From Thermodesulfobacteriota bacterium (GTDB taxonomy: Bacteria; Desulfobacterota; Desulfobacteria; Desulfobacterales; Desulfosudaceae): a DNA stretch of 64,000 nucleotides. The translations under genes were made by a program, and so were the position numbers. Location of the stretch: positions 124,001-188,000 of the forward strand of contig JBFMDX010000004.1 of assembly GCA_040753795.1 (NCBI GenBank), given 5' to 3'. The notes under the pieces are model-generated. The model had not been told where the DNA came from. It saw only the letters and a list, made by a program, of their open reading frames with translations, and did no database searches. Position 1 is the first letter of the stretch. Each line of letters starts with the position of its first letter. Shown in pieces: positions 10,711-64,000 of this stretch.

Positions 10711-11847
10711 ATGAAATGTTCAATCAAAAAGACAGATATACTTACCATGCTGGCCAATATTCAAGGAATAACAGGTAAAAAATCCTCCCTGGCCATAACT
10801 GAAAATATTTTAATAAAAACAATTAATAAAGGAATTTCTGTTTCCGCAACGGATATTGAAACCGGTTTTGAAGGCATTTATCCGGCGACGGTGCAGACAG
10901 ATGGAGAAATAGCTGTAAATGCAAGGGATTTTTTTGATATTGTTAAAAAATCAGGGAAAGAAAAAATTTATATAAGCGAAAATAAGAAACAATGGATAGA
11001 AATTACCGATTCGAAAGATGCCGGCAGTCTCAAATACAATATAGTAGGTGCTAATACCCTTGAATTTCCAGAACTTCCAAAAATAAAAGATGTTTCATAT
11101 TTTGAGATTGAAGCGGATGTATTTAAAAAAATGATTTCCTGGGCTGTAATGGTGATGTACAGCGGTGATGAAAAGAGAGTTCATATTCTGGGCGCTGATT
11201 TGGAATGTCAGGAAACAGATGATGGCTATAAACTGATGATGATATCCACGGATGGAAAAAGACTAACAAAAACAGAAACGATAATAAAAAACAAAAACAA
11301 CAAAGGAATAGAATCAGGTCAGCAGATTATCATACCGAAAAAAGCATTAAATGAAGTTCAGAAGTTCCTGTATGACAAGGGAAAAATTGGTGTTGGTGTG
11401 AAGGAAAATTATTTTATTGTTAAAAAAGATAATGAAATTATATATATAAATCTTTTCAGTGGAAATTTTCCTGATCTTAAAGGACTATTTGTCGATCAAG
11501 ACAGGATGGTGCTTGAAATAGATAAAAAAGAGTTCAAGGATATGCTGGAAAGAATGTCAATATTAACGTCCGATGATTACAAGGGAGTTATTTTCAGATT
11601 TGAAAACAACAAACTGACCGTTAATGCCGCCAATCCGGAACGGGGAGAATCTTCTGAATTCATGAATATATCATTTGATAAAAAAGCAATTGAAACCATG
11701 TTTAACCCTCATTATTTTATTGACGCCTTAAATGTTATAGATGAAAGTAAAGTTTATTTAAAAATAAAAGATGAACAGACCCCCTGTATAATTTGCGGAA
11801 AAGATTCGGAAACTAATTTTAACATTATCATGCCCATGAAAATATAA
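10711..11847 (+). CDS. dnaN: DNA polymerase III beta subunit (sliding clamp)
   Basis: A 378-residue protein of normal beta-clamp length. The N-terminus (MKCSIKKTDILTMLANIQGI) and the three-domain pattern match DnaN, including SATDIETGFEG near residue 50, STDGKRLTKTE in domain 2 and the C-terminal FNIIMPMKI. It forms the ring that tethers polymerase to DNA. The gene is strikingly AT-rich compared with most of the window. Its stop is three bases before the gyrB ATG, so the two are cotranscribed. The usual recF between dnaN and gyrB and the usual upstream dnaA are absent. Confidence 0.95.
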   Translation: MKCSIKKTDILTMLANIQGITGKKSSLAITENILIKTINKGISVSATDIETGFEGIYPATVQTDGEIAVNARDFFDIVKKSGKEKIYISENKKQWIEITDSKDAGSLKYNIVGANTLEFPELPKIKDVSYFEIEADVFKKMISWAVMVMYSGDEKRVHILGADLECQETDDGYKLMMISTDGKRLTKTETIIKNKNNKGIESGQQIIIPKKALNEVQKFLYDKGKIGVGVKENYFIVKKDNEIIYINLFSGNFPDLKGLFVDQDRMVLEIDKKEFKDMLERMSILTSDDYKGVIFRFENNKLTVNAANPERGESSEFMNISFDKKAIETMFNPHYFIDALNVIDESKVYLKIKDEQTPCIICGKDSETNFNIIMPMKI

Positions 11848-14274
<2,427 letters not shown>

Positions 14275-57647: not shown

Positions 57648-57682
57648 AACCGCTAAACTGGAGGTTTGGCAAGGAGGTGCCC

Positions 57683-58861
57683 ATGAGAACCCTTTCATTT
57701 GTCTTTTCCCACAAGCTCCCAGTTGTAAAAAAGCGCGTCAAAGCAGGCAGTCCGACATCCTTTCCGGAAAACAAGTCCGGCAAAGGATCGTTTGGCGCAG
57801 GAATTCTTCTCTTGGCGGTCTCGGTACTCACGATATATGTCGCTTACAACATAGCAACCGAAGACAGGATCGTCCCTCAAACGCCTTCAGTCTCTCGTGC
57901 GGACAAAATCGACAGCCGGCTGTCCGAATTTATGGATGAAAAAATAGACCCGGTCCTGAAGGACAACCACAACCGCAACCTTGATGCCGTCAAAAGAGCG
58001 GTTCAGGATGTTAATGATCTCTTCAGCCAGTATGAGCAAGGCGTCGCCCCCTTTGTGGATGATGTTACCAGTTGGGGCACACGCTTTGGAATTATCGGGC
58101 GCTATGCCGGGGAAAAATACGATACCTGGTGGAAAGACAAAGAAAGCACAACCAGAGTGGCCGACTATATCAGCGAAAAATTTGGAAAGCATGTGTTTGC
58201 CGGTAATAAGATCGAGGGGGATTTACAGCTCATCGTCAACAATTTCCTGCAAGATGTCGAAGCCAATCAGAACCTCATGCTTTCCGAAATAACCGAACAG
58301 ATTGAAATGTCCGGCCTGCCAATCGATAAGAATTTATTTAAACCGGAAAACTTCACCCCTAAATTCAAGCAGGATCTTGAGCCGGTCTTAAAGGAAATGG
58401 CGAAAGATTCCATGAATGTCGGCCTCCTGAGTATTCTGGGCGGATTTATATTAGAAGAATCAGCCACAAAAATTGTTCAAAGCGTATTGGCAGCGGTATC
58501 GTCCGGAATAGCGGCTACAACCGCCTCTTCAGCCGCCTCGTCCGCTGTATCCACCGGCGTGATTCAGGGGGGAAATATGCTGTCCATTTCAGCAGCCGGC
58601 GGCGGCGCAGGCAGTTTCGGCGGTCCGGCGGGCATGATCATAGGTGCGGTTGTAGGCCTGACCGTCGGTGTGATCATTGACTGGTGGGCCACGGAGAAGC
58701 TGCAGGAAAAGCTGACCGACCAATGTGTGTCTTTTCTGAACAACACAAAGACCGCGATTCTAAGCAGCGAAGAGGGGCTGATTCCCAGTCTTTACCAGTC
58801 GTTATCAATTACCGGTGAATCCTACCGGCGGGTGATCAACGCAAATTTACGAAAGGAGTAG
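57683..58861 (+). CDS. Glycine-rich membrane protein, unknown
   Basis: About 392 residues from ATG 57683, which has AAGGAGG at five bases. One N-terminal TM helix lies near residues 36-56 (FGAGILLLAVSVLTIYVAYN). A charged helical region (about 65-255) follows. The block at about 255-335 is Ala/Ser/Gly-rich and hydrophobic (SAAGGGAGSFGG, GMIIGAVVGLTVGVIIDWW), with glycine-zipper spacing as in membrane-inserting proteins. The C-terminus is polar. It ends two bases before the next gene. Function is unknown; a membrane partner or channel for the downstream exported proteins is speculation. Confidence 0.7.
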   Translation: MRTLSFVFSHKLPVVKKRVKAGSPTSFPENKSGKGSFGAGILLLAVSVLTIYVAYNIATEDRIVPQTPSVSRADKIDSRLSEFMDEKIDPVLKDNHNRNLDAVKRAVQDVNDLFSQYEQGVAPFVDDVTSWGTRFGIIGRYAGEKYDTWWKDKESTTRVADYISEKFGKHVFAGNKIEGDLQLIVNNFLQDVEANQNLMLSEITEQIEMSGLPIDKNLFKPENFTPKFKQDLEPVLKEMAKDSMNVGLLSILGGFILEESATKIVQSVLAAVSSGIAATTASSAASSAVSTGVIQGGNMLSISAAGGGAGSFGGPAGMIIGAVVGLTVGVIIDWWATEKLQEKLTDQCVSFLNNTKTAILSSEEGLIPSLYQSLSITGESYRRVINANLRKE

Positions 58862-58863
58862 CC

Positions 58864-59802
58864 ATGAAATCATGTCGATTAACCATTTATCCTTTTGTCC
58901 TTCTGTTTATAGTGGGTGTTTGTTCGACCTCTTATGGAAACCCTCTTATCCGGGAATCCCTTGAACAGATCATTGAATTTTCTGTCAAAAAAAGCGGTCA
59001 AACCGCTGCCAAGGAATTTGTCGAATTCGGGGGTGAGACGGCTGCCAGAGAAGTCCTTGAAAAAGCATACCAGGAAGGCGGTGAAGCGCTAACGAAAAAG
59101 GTTGTGCAATATAGCGAAAAATATGGGATAATTGCTTTGAGAGGTATACGGCAATCTCCAAAAATCTTTCTGCAAGCACTTGATGATATGCCGGATAATT
59201 TAATCAGATCGGCACTGCAATCCGTAAAGAGAGAACCTGAGCTATTAGCACGGTTGACCTCTGAATACGGCTCCAAAGCCCTGAAAGTCGCGGCACAACA
59301 TCCCGGGGTTGGTCCTCAGATAGCATCTAAGCTGGGTAAGGAAGGAATCGACCTGGCGCTTGAGCTTCCGACAGAATCCGCAATCAAACTCAATAAGATC
59401 GCCGGCCCTTTACAGAAATTAGACTCAACGCAAAGGTCGGCCATCATAGACATAATAAAAAAAGCGCCGGGGAAGGCCCTGGACCTGCTGGAGAATCATC
59501 CACGGGTATTATATACATCCGCGGCTGTCGCGAGTTTTCTGGCCGCAAAGGATCAAATCCTTGGGGACAGCGAGGTCCATATCGACGATAACGGCCAGGT
59601 CCAGGTAGTTGATAAGCATGGACTGATCGGCAGGACCGTCAATTGCTTACTGAATACAAAAGAAACCCGAAACGCCATATCCGCTGTCTTTTATGTGATT
59701 GCTCTGGTTATCGGCTGCGGGGGGGTGAGTATTATAGTCGGTGGGTTCAGAAAAAGGAAGGTTAAGGAAGAGCGTCTCAAGCAAAAGCTAACCAAAAACT
59801 GA
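58864..59802 (+). CDS. Exported helical protein with C-terminal TM anchor, unknown
   Basis: A 312-residue protein behind GGAGTAGCC. A signal peptide (residues 1 to about 25, ending SYG) is followed by a long region of short amphipathic helices resembling irregular repeats (SEKYGIIALRGIRQSPKIFL, TSEYGSKALKVAAQHPGVG). A C-terminal TM helix (VIALVIGCGGVSIIVGG) ends in a strongly basic tail, so the topology is periplasmic with an inner-membrane anchor. No known family is recognised. From residue 24 on it is duplicated just downstream by the 1,010-bp tandem repeat. It precedes the MORN-AHH gene in the ancestral order. Confidence 0.72.
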   Translation: MKSCRLTIYPFVLLFIVGVCSTSYGNPLIRESLEQIIEFSVKKSGQTAAKEFVEFGGETAAREVLEKAYQEGGEALTKKVVQYSEKYGIIALRGIRQSPKIFLQALDDMPDNLIRSALQSVKREPELLARLTSEYGSKALKVAAQHPGVGPQIASKLGKEGIDLALELPTESAIKLNKIAGPLQKLDSTQRSAIIDIIKKAPGKALDLLENHPRVLYTSAAVASFLAAKDQILGDSEVHIDDNGQVQVVDKHGLIGRTVNCLLNTKETRNAISAVFYVIALVIGCGGVSIIVGGFRKRKVKEERLKQKLTKN

Positions 59803-59940
59803 AATTTCTACGCATGTTTTGTCATTTTACAACCAAAGCCGCCCACAATGAATAAACATAAAAAAAAAATAGCATTAAGCATATTGATATTATTTTTAAT
59901 CAATCAATTTTCTGTTGTTTCGGCTGGCTGCTGGATTCCC
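58931..59940 (+). repeat. 1,010-bp direct tandem repeat, copy 1
   Basis: This copy runs from codon 23 of the exported helical gene through its stop, the 45-base gap and the first 31 codons of the MORN gene. It appears identical to 59941-60950. Two further bases (CT) are shared at the junctions. Confidence 0.93.
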
Positions 59941-60102
59941 CTTATGGAAACCCTCTTATCCGGGAATCCCTTGAACAGATCATTGAATTTTCTGTCAAAA
60001 AAAGCGGTCAAACCGCTGCCAAGGAATTTGTCGAATTCGGGGGTGAGACGGCTGCCAGAGAAGTCCTTGAAAAAGCATACCAGGAAGGCGGTGAAGCGCT
60101 AA
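59848..60102 (+). pseudogene. Chimeric truncated frame: MORN-gene signal peptide joined out of frame
   Basis: The first 32 codons equal the N-terminus of the MORN gene (signal peptide to GCWIPL). At 59941 the frame runs into the helical gene in a non-native frame and stops at 60102. It is a by-product of the tandem duplication. A -1 shift at the junction would join the MORN signal peptide to the helical protein's mature part. Confidence 0.8.
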
Positions 60103-60950
60103 CGAAAAAGGTTGTGCAATATAGCGAAAAATATGGGATAATTGCTTTGAGAGGTATACGGCAATCTCCAAAAATCTTTCTGCAAGCACTTGATGATATG
60201 CCGGATAATTTAATCAGATCGGCACTGCAATCCGTAAAGAGAGAACCTGAGCTATTAGCACGGTTGACCTCTGAATACGGCTCCAAAGCCCTGAAAGTCG
60301 CGGCACAACATCCCGGGGTTGGTCCTCAGATAGCATCTAAGCTGGGTAAGGAAGGAATCGACCTGGCGCTTGAGCTTCCGACAGAATCCGCAATCAAACT
60401 CAATAAGATCGCCGGCCCTTTACAGAAATTAGACTCAACGCAAAGGTCGGCCATCATAGACATAATAAAAAAAGCGCCGGGGAAGGCCCTGGACCTGCTG
60501 GAGAATCATCCACGGGTATTATATACATCCGCGGCTGTCGCGAGTTTTCTGGCCGCAAAGGATCAAATCCTTGGGGACAGCGAGGTCCATATCGACGATA
60601 ACGGCCAGGTCCAGGTAGTTGATAAGCATGGACTGATCGGCAGGACCGTCAATTGCTTACTGAATACAAAAGAAACCCGAAACGCCATATCCGCTGTCTT
60701 TTATGTGATTGCTCTGGTTATCGGCTGCGGGGGGGTGAGTATTATAGTCGGTGGGTTCAGAAAAAGGAAGGTTAAGGAAGAGCGTCTCAAGCAAAAGCTA
60801 ACCAAAAACTGAAATTTCTACGCATGTTTTGTCATTTTACAACCAAAGCCGCCCACAATGAATAAACATAAAAAAAAAATAGCATTAAGCATATTGATAT
60901 TATTTTTAATCAATCAATTTTCTGTTGTTTCGGCTGGCTGCTGGATTCCC
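59941..60950 (+). repeat. 1,010-bp direct tandem repeat, copy 2
   Basis: It directly abuts copy 1 with no spacer. Comparison of the printed sequence shows no differences. The sequences diverge after 60952, where the intact MORN gene continues. Confidence 0.93.
59943..60812 (+). pseudogene. Second copy of the helical gene, lacking its start and signal peptide
   Basis: It encodes residues 24-312 of the upstream 312-residue protein without change. The breakpoint removes just the signal peptide. The frame is open back to about 59862, but no ATG, GTG or TTG start exists before GTG 60114, which would give 232 residues without export signal. It is probably silent unless reached by frameshifting or restart. 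Confidence 0.75.
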
Positions 60951-63668
60951 CTAAAAAATAGCCCATGTAAGGTATGGTTTGATGAATATACAACAAGGGA
61001 CGGGAAAGACTGCGGCGAGCCTTCATATGAGTTTGAGTGGGAGGGAGGTTGTTTTGATAACTACGCCCATGGCCCCGGAGTTTTAAAAACATATCGTTCA
61101 GGAACGCATATTAATACGGAAGCAACGGAGTTGTATTATGGATCAATCAACAAACAGTCCATACAAAAGGTTGGAGAAGATGAATACATTGGCGAGACTA
61201 ATAGGGGCTCCTTGGATGGAAACGGCATTTTAATCAAACATGATGGGCGAAAATATATTGGTGGATTTAACGAAAGTTTGCCACATGGCAAATTGTCAGA
61301 ATATATCGGCGAACAGATACTTTATGACGGTCAATGGATAAACGGGAAGAAAGAGGGCTCTGGGACCATTTATTATAGCAATGGCATAAGGTACGAAGGG
61401 CCGGTTCTTGACGGCAAGCCTCACGGAGAAGGCCTCAGGTATGAAGATGGTAATGTGGTTACTTCCGGGACATGGGATTATGGCGTTTTAAACGGACCGG
61501 TAACAATCAATTACCCGGACGGTAAAAAGGTAGAAACAACCTTTACAAATGATATCAGAGGGGCTGAAGTTGTTATTTATTATCCGAATTATGACAAATA
61601 TGAAGGCGTCATAAATGAAGAGGGCCAGAAGAGCGGCCCTGGAAAATACTACTACGCTAATGGCGATTTATATGTAGGTGCTTGGGCAAGTGACACGCCA
61701 GACGGACTCGGCAAATTGATTTTTAAGGATGGCACAACCCTTGAAGGCGTTTGGAAGAACGGGCAATTAACAGAAAACGACAAAAATTTAATAATATATG
61801 AAAATAATGAGAAATATTTAGGCTCATTAAAAAACGGAATAAGATGCGGCCGTGGAACACTCTATTATAGTAATGGAAACAAATACGAAGGCGAATGGTC
61901 TGATAATGAAAAAAATGGAGAGGGGACATTCCATTTTTCCGATGGAGGCACATATACCGGGAGTTGGTTAAAGGGTAAAAAAAACGGGTCAGGAAGATAT
62001 GACCTTCCGACCGGGGCTTTTTACGAAGGCAATTGGGTTGATGACGAAAGGTCAGGGCTTGGCGTTTTCGTATTCCGCGGCGGATCCAAGTTTGAAGGTC
62101 AATGGGCTAATGACAAAAGAAACGGGCATGGAAAATTACAAACCGTTAGCGGGGCAGAGTATGAAGGTGACTGGAAAGACGATAAAATTAACGGTAAAGG
62201 GAAAATGTCTTTACCGGACGGAGAATATTATGACGGCGAATGGATAGACAATAAAAAGAACGGAAAGGGCGTTTATTACTGGAAAGATGGCTCCGCATAT
62301 ATTGGAGACTGGCAGGACGATCTTCCTCATGGTGGGGGGAACTTTTTCTGGATTAATGGGGATGTTTATGATGGCGAATGGGAATCCGGTTTACCGAATG
62401 GTGAGGGAACGCTGTTTTACGAAAACGGAGACCACTACGAAGGAAGCTGGGTTGACGGGAGCAAGGAAGGTGAGGGCACGTATGTTTTTGAAAACGGTAA
62501 TATTTACAAGGGATTTTTCTTAAACGGTCAGCCCAATGGTTTCGGTACATTCATATTCACCAATGATAGCTTTTACGAGGGCAGTTTTAAAGAAGGACGA
62601 TTTAATGGAGAGGGCTCGCTTCATATATGGCAGGATGACTCATACGTTATTTACACTAGTCTCTGGGATGGCTCCGAAAAATTACCAAAACATGGAAGCA
62701 TTTTGTTTGAAAATGGGGATTTGTTTGAGGGTGAGATCGAAGAGGACGGAGCGCCAACAGCAAATGGTGTATGGTCGACGGATGAAGAAAGACAAGATAG
62801 TGTCGAACCTGACAATGCAAAGCCTGTCCAGTCCCAACTCCAGGAAGATAAACCACAGCAGGAAGCGTCACGAATACGGCGAGCAAATGAGTTCTATAAA
62901 AAGCATGAATCAACTATATCTACTGCTGTTAACGTAGTAAGTCTGGTTCTAACAGTCGCCAGTTTTTTTCCCGCCACCGCTCCGGTTGCGGTTCCGGCAC
63001 TGATGGCACTGAATATTGCGGATGCAGCTATTACAACCACTTCTAAATCGATAGATGCTTATGACGCTTATAAAGAGGGCGACCGGGAAAAGATCAAGGA
63101 AGCGGGGTCCGATTTAATAGTAGAAGTTGGTGTAAATGTTCTTTTTATATACGCACCAAAATTTGTTAAAAAGGGGGTTAAAAAATTTAGTGAAAAACAT
63201 TTGAAAGAGGCGACTTCTGAATTATTAGGAAAAGCACTTTCAAAAGTATTGCGTGGGGCGAAAGCTCCTCTTAGAAGAAAAATAAAGAAAGAAATCAAAG
63301 AAGGTTTCGAAGGGGTAAGAGATTTAGCAAGGATGCAATTCTGTCCTCCTGGAAAATCTTGTGGGAAAATATTTAACGAGCAATACCAGTGCCATCATAT
63401 AGTTGCTCAAGGGGAGCCAGAAGCAGAACCGGCACGAATAATATTGGAAACGTATGGTATTGATGTTAAAAATGATGCTTGCAATAAAGTGTGTTTACCT
63501 CATAGTGGCCCTCACTCTAGCCAATATTATGCTTTTGTAAATATGTGCATCAATGAAGCCGCCAAAAAGGCAGCAGGTAAAAAGGACGGAAGAAATGAAA
63601 TTTTTAAAGCGCTTCTAAAATTACGTATAGGCTTAATAGCTAAAGAAATTCTTTTGTACAACAAATAA
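60858..63668 (+). CDS. Exported MORN-repeat protein with C-terminal AHH-type nuclease-like domain
   Basis: A 936-residue protein. Residues 1-26 form a signal peptide. About 20 MORN repeats of 22-24 residues (YEGEWSDNEKNGEGTF, YEGDWKDDKINGKGKM type) fill residues 110-620. A Gln/Glu-rich linker (about 635-675) precedes a hydrophobic segment (VVSLVLTVASFFPATAPVAV, about 690-720) and charged helices. The C-terminus has CHHIVAQG (His846-His847), then ARIILETYGIDVKNDACNKV and LPHSGPHSSQYY (His882, His886). This pattern resembles the AHH (His-His) nuclease toxin domain. A polymorphic-toxin-like role is inferred; catalysis is unproven. No clear Shine-Dalgarno precedes the ATG. Confidence 0.78.
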   Translation: MNKHKKKIALSILILFLINQFSVVSAGCWIPLKNSPCKVWFDEYTTRDGKDCGEPSYEFEWEGGCFDNYAHGPGVLKTYRSGTHINTEATELYYGSINKQSIQKVGEDEYIGETNRGSLDGNGILIKHDGRKYIGGFNESLPHGKLSEYIGEQILYDGQWINGKKEGSGTIYYSNGIRYEGPVLDGKPHGEGLRYEDGNVVTSGTWDYGVLNGPVTINYPDGKKVETTFTNDIRGAEVVIYYPNYDKYEGVINEEGQKSGPGKYYYANGDLYVGAWASDTPDGLGKLIFKDGTTLEGVWKNGQLTENDKNLIIYENNEKYLGSLKNGIRCGRGTLYYSNGNKYEGEWSDNEKNGEGTFHFSDGGTYTGSWLKGKKNGSGRYDLPTGAFYEGNWVDDERSGLGVFVFRGGSKFEGQWANDKRNGHGKLQTVSGAEYEGDWKDDKINGKGKMSLPDGEYYDGEWIDNKKNGKGVYYWKDGSAYIGDWQDDLPHGGGNFFWINGDVYDGEWESGLPNGEGTLFYENGDHYEGSWVDGSKEGEGTYVFENGNIYKGFFLNGQPNGFGTFIFTNDSFYEGSFKEGRFNGEGSLHIWQDDSYVIYTSLWDGSEKLPKHGSILFENGDLFEGEIEEDGAPTANGVWSTDEERQDSVEPDNAKPVQSQLQEDKPQQEASRIRRANEFYKKHESTISTAVNVVSLVLTVASFFPATAPVAVPALMALNIADAAITTTSKSIDAYDAYKEGDREKIKEAGSDLIVEVGVNVLFIYAPKFVKKGVKKFSEKHLKEATSELLGKALSKVLRGAKAPLRRKIKKEIKEGFEGVRDLARMQFCPPGKSCGKIFNEQYQCHHIVAQGEPEAEPARIILETYGIDVKNDACNKVCLPHSGPHSSQYYAFVNMCINEAAKKAAGKKDGRNEIFKALLKLRIGLIAKEILLYNK

Positions 63669-63696: not shown

Positions 63697-64000
63697 ATGG
63701 AAAACAATGATCAAAAAAAATCAGGCAATGGAAAATGGATTGTTGTGGCTGTATGTATTGCGTTTGTTATTGCAATTGTTTTTTACCTTAACAAAACGAC
63801 CGACAACAAATCGGAAATTTCTCCATCAGCACAACAGAATGCCTCGTTAAATGGTTATGAAGGAACAGGAGACGGCCCAGGTGCTTCTAAAAAGATCGGT
63901 GATATCGGGGGCGATCCCGCCAACCCAGATGGGATAGGAGGAAAAGATTCTGACAGCGGTAAAATGACTGAAACTGACGACACTATGCTTGGAGGTGCCA
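63697..64000 (+). CDS. Membrane-anchored Gly/Asp-rich protein, truncated by the window end
   Basis: It starts at ATG 63697 behind GAGGAAGG, 28 bases after the MORN-AHH gene. About 101 residues are visible. A short charged N-terminus precedes one TM helix (WIVVAVCIAFVIAIVFYL, about 14-31), then a polar Gly/Asp/Ser-rich region (GTGDGPGASKKIGDIGGDP). Its place after a nuclease-like gene makes it a candidate partner or immunity gene, but composition suggests a periplasmic linker. No assignment is possible without the rest. Confidence 0.65.
   Translation, partial: MENNDQKKSGNGKWIVVAVCIAFVIAIVFYLNKTTDNKSEISPSAQQNASLNGYEGTGDGPGASKKIGDIGGDPANPDGIGGKDSDSGKMTETDDTMLGGA

Follow-up and report, generated by a model that had tools for sequence, protein, structure and literature searches.

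A MORN-repeat protein with a predicted AHH-family nuclease tip in a Desulfosudaceae genome

Proteins of the AHH family are reported to act as nuclease toxins in Myxococcus kin discrimination (PMC12077131, PMC12077181). The part of a standard toxin survey that defines the Tox-AHH domain gives its motif as [AG]HH, N, H, H, Y, and MORN is not among the Sec-route repeat carriers listed there, the word being absent from the first 300,000 characters of the text (PMC3482391). MORN proteins were found to dimerise, and their arrays are described as protein-protein interaction modules in the sections of a structural study that treat their function (PMC7725318). Another paper mentions MORN only as a repeat that binds ligands next to a Lipocone domain (PMC12419801), and a further one only as the annotation of a fold. 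Here we describe a gene in a 64,000-nucleotide stretch of DNA (the window) from a Thermodesulfobacteriota bacterium of the family Desulfosudaceae (assembly GCA_040753795.1, contig JBFMDX010000004.1, positions 124,001 to 188,000 of the forward strand), the product of which, termed the MORN-AHH protein, joins a signal-like start and a MORN array to a C-terminal AHH domain. What appears new is the unusual MORN carrier, the nuclease tip itself being of a known kind. No report of this fusion was found in the open-licence literature, and one may exist elsewhere. YwqK of Bacillus subtilis presumably carries MORN-type repeats. The ywqJ-ywqK genes are presented as a putative toxin and antitoxin pair in the pertinent part of one paper (PMC8321402).

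The gene and its product are laid out as follows:
60858..63668, + strand: MORN-AHH protein, 936 amino acids (aa), ATG start, intact open reading frame (ORF)
60858..60935, + strand: probable Sec signal peptide, residues 1-26, with a VSA-G cleavage site suggested by hydropathy
60936..61322, + strand: N-terminal module, residues 27-155, with four cysteines (28, 37, 52, 65)
61323..62645, + strand: MORN array, residues 156-596, 16 units detected
62910..63170, + strand: hydrophobic neck, stretches 685-728 and 752-771 by hydropathy
63381..63623, + strand: predicted AHH nuclease domain, residues 842-922, by profile match and motif residues

As judged from its sequence, the tip of the MORN-AHH protein is an AHH-type nuclease domain of the HNH/endonuclease VII (Endo VII) superfamily, and DNA cleavage is predicted for it. 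The AHH profile (PF14412) matched residues 842-922 at E 3.4e-11 and 43.6 bits, about 21 above the curated cut-off of 22.3, and it scored 46.4 bits on the C-terminal part alone; this was the sole AHH match in the 4.75-Mb genome. The ORF is as the first-pass annotation had described it, its quoted motifs were located (CHHIV at 845, GIDVKNDACNKV at 867 and LPHSGPHSS from 880), and its assignment to the AHH/HNH superfamily was borne out by the profile search. The motif residues H846, H847, N876, H882, H886 and Y890 are all retained, so that the protein shares with the family the profile match, the HH-N-H-H-Y order and the C-terminal place. It differs in having a cysteine before the HH pair, six cysteines in the AHH region and no known immunity partner adjoining. 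We consider the MORN-AHH protein very probably a member of the AHH family that carries an export signal.

The tip was compared with 1,141 stop-to-stop frames of at least 90 aa from loci outside its own genome, a set that includes chance frames and duplicates. Among the best matches was an RHS, pretoxin HINT and AHH protein on an IMG/VR contig (L055; 36.8% over 87 aa). A Streptomyces plasmid protein annotated as a HINT-type polymorphic toxin (L044) reached 41.0% over 78 aa. Two more matches, at 34.8% over 69 aa each, were to RHS proteins from the bacterium's own order, each a single gene covered by a pair of overlapping loci (L050/L085 and L051/L088). The first of these has an SpvB/TcdB-middle/RHS plus AHH architecture and the second is RHS plus AHH. 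The tip is thus shared with other carriers at 35-41% identity, and because the closest tips sit on RHS or HINT toxins it belongs to an interchangeable toxin kind; compared with those toxins (L044, L055, L085, L088), the MORN-AHH protein has a MORN array in place of RHS repeats and is without HINT. In the same order, a further protein with a signal-like start also ends in AHH (L048/L086). Searches with the tip gave no match in phages and one in plasmids, and viral-contig scans returned nothing for the tip or the neighbour proteins, although the Streptomyces tip as query found L055. In the phylum sample, the C-terminal 269 aa matched only the own genome and one chance match with in-frame stops.

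Exported AHH nucleases are also known from the SitA lipoprotein toxins of Myxococcus, which use outer-membrane exchange according to the section of PMC8546572 that covers them, and the MORN-AHH protein is of this description by prediction. PF09533, given for SitA6 in the corresponding part of PMC12077181, was unmatched in the Pfam scan of the MORN-AHH protein. Unlike the SitA lipoproteins, the protein has no convincing lipobox by eye. To our knowledge, SitA toxins possess no MORN array.

It was noted that the locus with the other signal-like AHH protein (L086:3406-4487) holds a 191-codon open frame with AHH at 72.0 bits. The ORF after it had no Pfam match and may be a candidate immunity gene.

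The carrier part was examined in the same way. Residues 6-32 are basic and hydrophobic with a plausible VSA-G cleavage site, and the layout of export signal, repeats and C-terminal toxin is therefore present, with the signal resting on hydropathy only. MORN (PF02493) matched at E 2.5e-72, with 15 stretches at E<=1, and a model made from the protein's own repeats detected 16 units, while residues 156-596 could fit about 19. The first-pass annotation had described an exported protein with about 20 repeats; the signal-like start agrees with the first part, and the count was slightly high. For the N-terminal module (residues 27-156), matches were found in 16 of 194 order genomes, own included, nearly all from module residue 69 onward; most outside matches start only near its MORN-like end, and the plasmid search gave no match.

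The MORN-AHH fusion is rare in our sample, a combination of known parts that is itself unusual. AHH was present in three of 345 phylum-sample genomes and six of 340 order-sample genomes (this genome counted in both), and none of the nine other AHH ORFs had three or more MORN units. A whole-protein search gave matches in 26 of 58 genomes, own included, the match in G011 being to the AHH part, and a genome-contig scan gave one MORN-TPR match. We assembled 35 other MORN ORFs (31 from the order, one from Chitinophagales and three plasmid-borne), with loci of the same gene counted once by hand. Left out were G040:C468 and five loci with no ORF of at least 150 aa carrying at least three units (L060, L067, L078, L079, L082); three (H1, H4, H11) of the 27 plasmid records with MORN matches were examined. 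None of the 35 had AHH, so that it was found on one of 36 MORN proteins once the MORN-AHH protein is counted, which agrees with the earlier suggestion that a MORN array is an uncommon toxin carrier. Of the 28 Pfam families on the MORN carriers, the 25 that were listed include no other toxin family.

By a threshold of our choosing, 32 of the 36 MORN sequences, the MORN-AHH protein included, have a strongly hydrophobic stretch at the N-terminus. Exported MORN proteins are thus ordinary in the sample, most having a signal-like start, and the AHH tip is the unusual part. The MORN-AHH protein shares its start type, N-terminal cysteines and MORN array with these signal-like proteins, which are mostly of the same order, but a loose N-terminal cysteine motif (C-x2-GDC-x-NG type) present in 26 of the 36 is absent from it. 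The others stop soon past the array or carry different tails and none carries AHH; tails longer than 60 aa were found in nine of 35, being TPR (L023, L065), a conjugation coupling protein (L047), PEGA (L056) and five unrecognised (L028, L045, L061, L063, L081), which could hide unknown domains.

Three further MORN proteins were noted. A second long MORN ORF of this genome (L022:5940-8078; 712 aa, outside the 35) is nearly all repeats and without a toxin domain, and a serine/threonine-kinase-like ORF (by eye) lies near it. A Methylomonas plasmid protein (L047:3074-6967) combines a signal-like start and MORN repeats with a coupling protein of type IV secretion (PF02534, E 1.3e-86). The longest array in the survey comprises 87 MORN units in a 2,243-codon open frame (L075:4213-10941).

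Toxin tips move between carriers, and if the fusion is functional, exported MORN proteins would be possible presentation rods. We regard the MORN-AHH protein as a predicted AHH-family nuclease on a new carrier, and in our judgement the chances are about even that it works as an envelope-held antibacterial toxin. Under this proposal the chain would be exported by Sec, and the MORN rod would bind a partner or self-associate, keeping the protein in place in the envelope. The hydrophobic neck, which resembles pre-toxin segments by position only and is helical in a low-confidence structure model, might help the tip to cross a neighbour cell's membrane, where the tip would then cut the neighbour's DNA. 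Membrane binding by the MORN repeats, raised in the first-pass annotation, is a weak premise, because in the relevant results of the one structural study a MORN protein bound individual phospholipids and no binding to membranes or vesicles was seen (PMC7725318). A toxin role is favoured by the profile match with its kept residues, the RHS and HINT relatives of the predicted tip, the neck, and the presence of AHH on another signal-like protein. The cysteine-rich AHH region, the AHH toxins reported from Myxococcus and the low G+C of the locus were counted on the same side.

If the fusion is functional, the lack of a recognised immunity gene beside a nuclease also poses a question of self-protection. 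The AHH region, taken as -20 to +85 around HH, contains six cysteines (829, 835, 845, 875, 879, 897), and 11 other AHH proteins (the nine other AHH ORFs plus L044 and L055) have zero to three. One guess is that the six-cysteine tip folds only after export, sparing the producer; such folding outside the cytoplasm would perhaps explain the absence of a known immunity gene. The cysteine argument for folding after export is weak.

Several results weigh against an antibacterial toxin. Cys845 stands where the motif expects A or G, although this position is not strict, since relatives show L, I and P there and three of them (L085, L088, L043) pass PF14412. Against the cysteine argument, four of the 11 other AHH proteins (L043, L052, L053, L054) have four to six cysteines from the AHH region to the protein end, whereas L048, which also combines AHH with a signal-like start, lacks cysteines over that span. 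A model of the 269-aa C-terminal piece has strands at HH and NKV followed by a helix, at a predicted local distance difference test (pLDDT) score of only 51 overall; block means were 56-86 over positions 181-250 of the piece and 48 at the HH block, which is low confidence. Fold searches with this model were uninformative, giving mainly helical matches; no AHH or His-Me chain was listed, which does not speak against such a fold. The fusion was seen once only, which leaves no conservation argument, and the 35 other MORN ORFs showed no varied toxin tips, contrary to the expectation of variable C-terminal toxins on MORN carriers. The AHH-type toxin idea was to be dropped if both a His-Me profile match and C-terminal variation were lacking; only the lack of variation was seen.

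Delivery and immunity count on the same side. Delivery by a type VI secretion system was rejected, as TssF, the one marker used, was not found in this genome and was detected in the Escherichia coli control. Profile scans recognised no immunity family in the neighbour genes, where one of an unknown type is possible, and Imm11 had no match in this genome, the control genomes being equally silent. By contrast, an Imm11 gene directly follows the RHS-AHH ORF at both L085 (34.8 bits) and L088 (59.8 bits; cut-off 22.1), so the earlier view of the neighbours as a protection set found no backing.

The best surviving alternative, which we nonetheless hold to be unlikely, is a nuclease sited in the envelope and acting outside the cytoplasm, where it would cut phage or plasmid DNA on its way in, or else extracellular DNA used as food. 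It draws on the genes around the locus:
57677..58861, + strand: 394-aa membrane protein, two hydrophobic segments and a glycine-zipper-like stretch, without convincing relatives
58864..59802, + strand: 312-aa protein, signal-like segment, helical-repeat body and C-terminal transmembrane segment, without convincing relatives
63697..64000, + strand: start of a 301-aa gene (whole gene L021:697-1602), the product having an OmpA domain, a single transmembrane segment and two repeats that look almost identical by eye

Here the nuclease would be positioned at the cell wall by the MORN protein together with the neighbour that has an OmpA domain. The export-type start and cysteine-rich tip fit such a protein, as do the one or two membrane segments in each neighbour and the OmpA domain in one of them, and no immunity gene would be needed. 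However, the nearest AHH tips belong to RHS or HINT toxins, and PADLOC gave no family for the MORN-AHH protein or the 394-aa and 312-aa proteins upstream; the likeness to ZorB that it reported (E 1.1e-8) is confined to the OmpA part of the 301-aa protein, and the propeller protein downstream had only weak repeat-type matches. Zorya defence was rejected on this ground, with no ZorA among the seven proteins scanned. Outer-membrane exchange was likewise rejected, the 301-aa protein scoring 31.9 bits against the TraB model, by its OmpA part only, where the cut-off is 700. PHROGs returned only repeat-type, OmpA-type, tape-measure-type and propeller matches.

The neighbours, called small in the first-pass annotation, in fact encode proteins of 394, 312 and 301 aa, and part of one of these genes is duplicated. 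The 312-aa gene begins 2 base pairs (bp) after the 394-aa gene, both upstream of the MORN-AHH gene, and the 301-aa gene, with its OmpA domain at 46.7 bits (cut-off 27.2), begins 28 bp past the MORN-AHH stop and is followed by a gene for a beta-propeller protein. Their shared strand and close spacing suggest a single transcription unit. Promoter-like sites around the locus showed no excess (12 versus 11.8 in shuffles); terminator-like sites numbered 15 versus 7.9 (standard deviation 3.3) in shuffles, and the + strand ones fell within ORFs. The G+C content drops to 0.39-0.415 over the stretch that starts with the toxin gene and ends with the propeller gene, against 0.52 for the window, which fits acquired DNA.

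No convincing relatives of the 394-aa protein, the 312-aa protein or the N-terminal part of the 301-aa protein were found in 241, 241 and 213 genomes, respectively. Beyond the own genome, the 394-aa search gave two weak matches, one of them a 623-aa membrane protein with a similar layout, and the 312-aa search gave one, at 29%, to an ORF that is of short-chain-dehydrogenase type by eye; the 301-aa N-terminal part matched the own genome only. A single-sequence model of the 312-aa protein had a predicted pLDDT of 62.5 overall, with blocks at 74-94 over residues 101-240, and its fold search had no match at E<=0.001, most of the structures found being helical proteins, designed ones included. Being anchored in the membrane, the three neighbours may keep the MORN-AHH protein in place or in check. 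A wider proposal, which we regard as highly doubtful, would make these three and the MORN-AHH protein one new envelope system, in which a wall-held MORN rod presents a nuclease activated by cysteine oxidation outside the cytoplasm, without need of classical immunity. Its target would be the DNA of neighbours or DNA entering the cell, met at the envelope or outside it.

More doubtful than the envelope nuclease is a chance, one-off fusion, in which a toxin tip landed on a resident exported MORN protein and is drifting without function. The single case in our samples and the cysteine in place of alanine before HH would suit this, as would a transposase-like ORF (by eye) further downstream and a tandem duplication just before the gene:
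58931..59942, + strand: copy 1, a 1,012-bp identical run with a period of 1,010
59941..60952, + strand: copy 2, holding the 312-aa gene without its 5' part and, after it, the actual MORN-AHH start

The copies are mismatch-free over 1,012 bp, and this perfect identity means that the duplication either arose very recently or is an artefact of assembly. Because the unit begins inside the 312-aa gene and ends inside the MORN-AHH gene, the second 312-aa copy has no start and the first MORN-AHH start is cut off. The MORN-AHH ORF is nevertheless intact over its 936 codons despite the duplication upstream, with the other motif residues kept, and the flanking 394-, 312- and 301-aa genes are likewise intact ORFs, which argues against drift. 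Quite improbable is a structural or adhesive envelope protein with the AHH fold turned binding module, for although the other MORN proteins surveyed run little beyond the array or finish in TPR, PEGA or unrecognised tails, the nuclease motif residues are kept here.

Near the locus, a 149-aa ORF ends right before the ORF judged transposase-like by eye (L021:2884-4603), and it may be a gene that the insertion disrupted. Elsewhere in the window, dnaN-like (378 aa) and gyrB-like (807 aa) ORFs (by eye) at 10711-14274 were found at 0.32-0.40 G+C between flanks of about 0.51-0.53.

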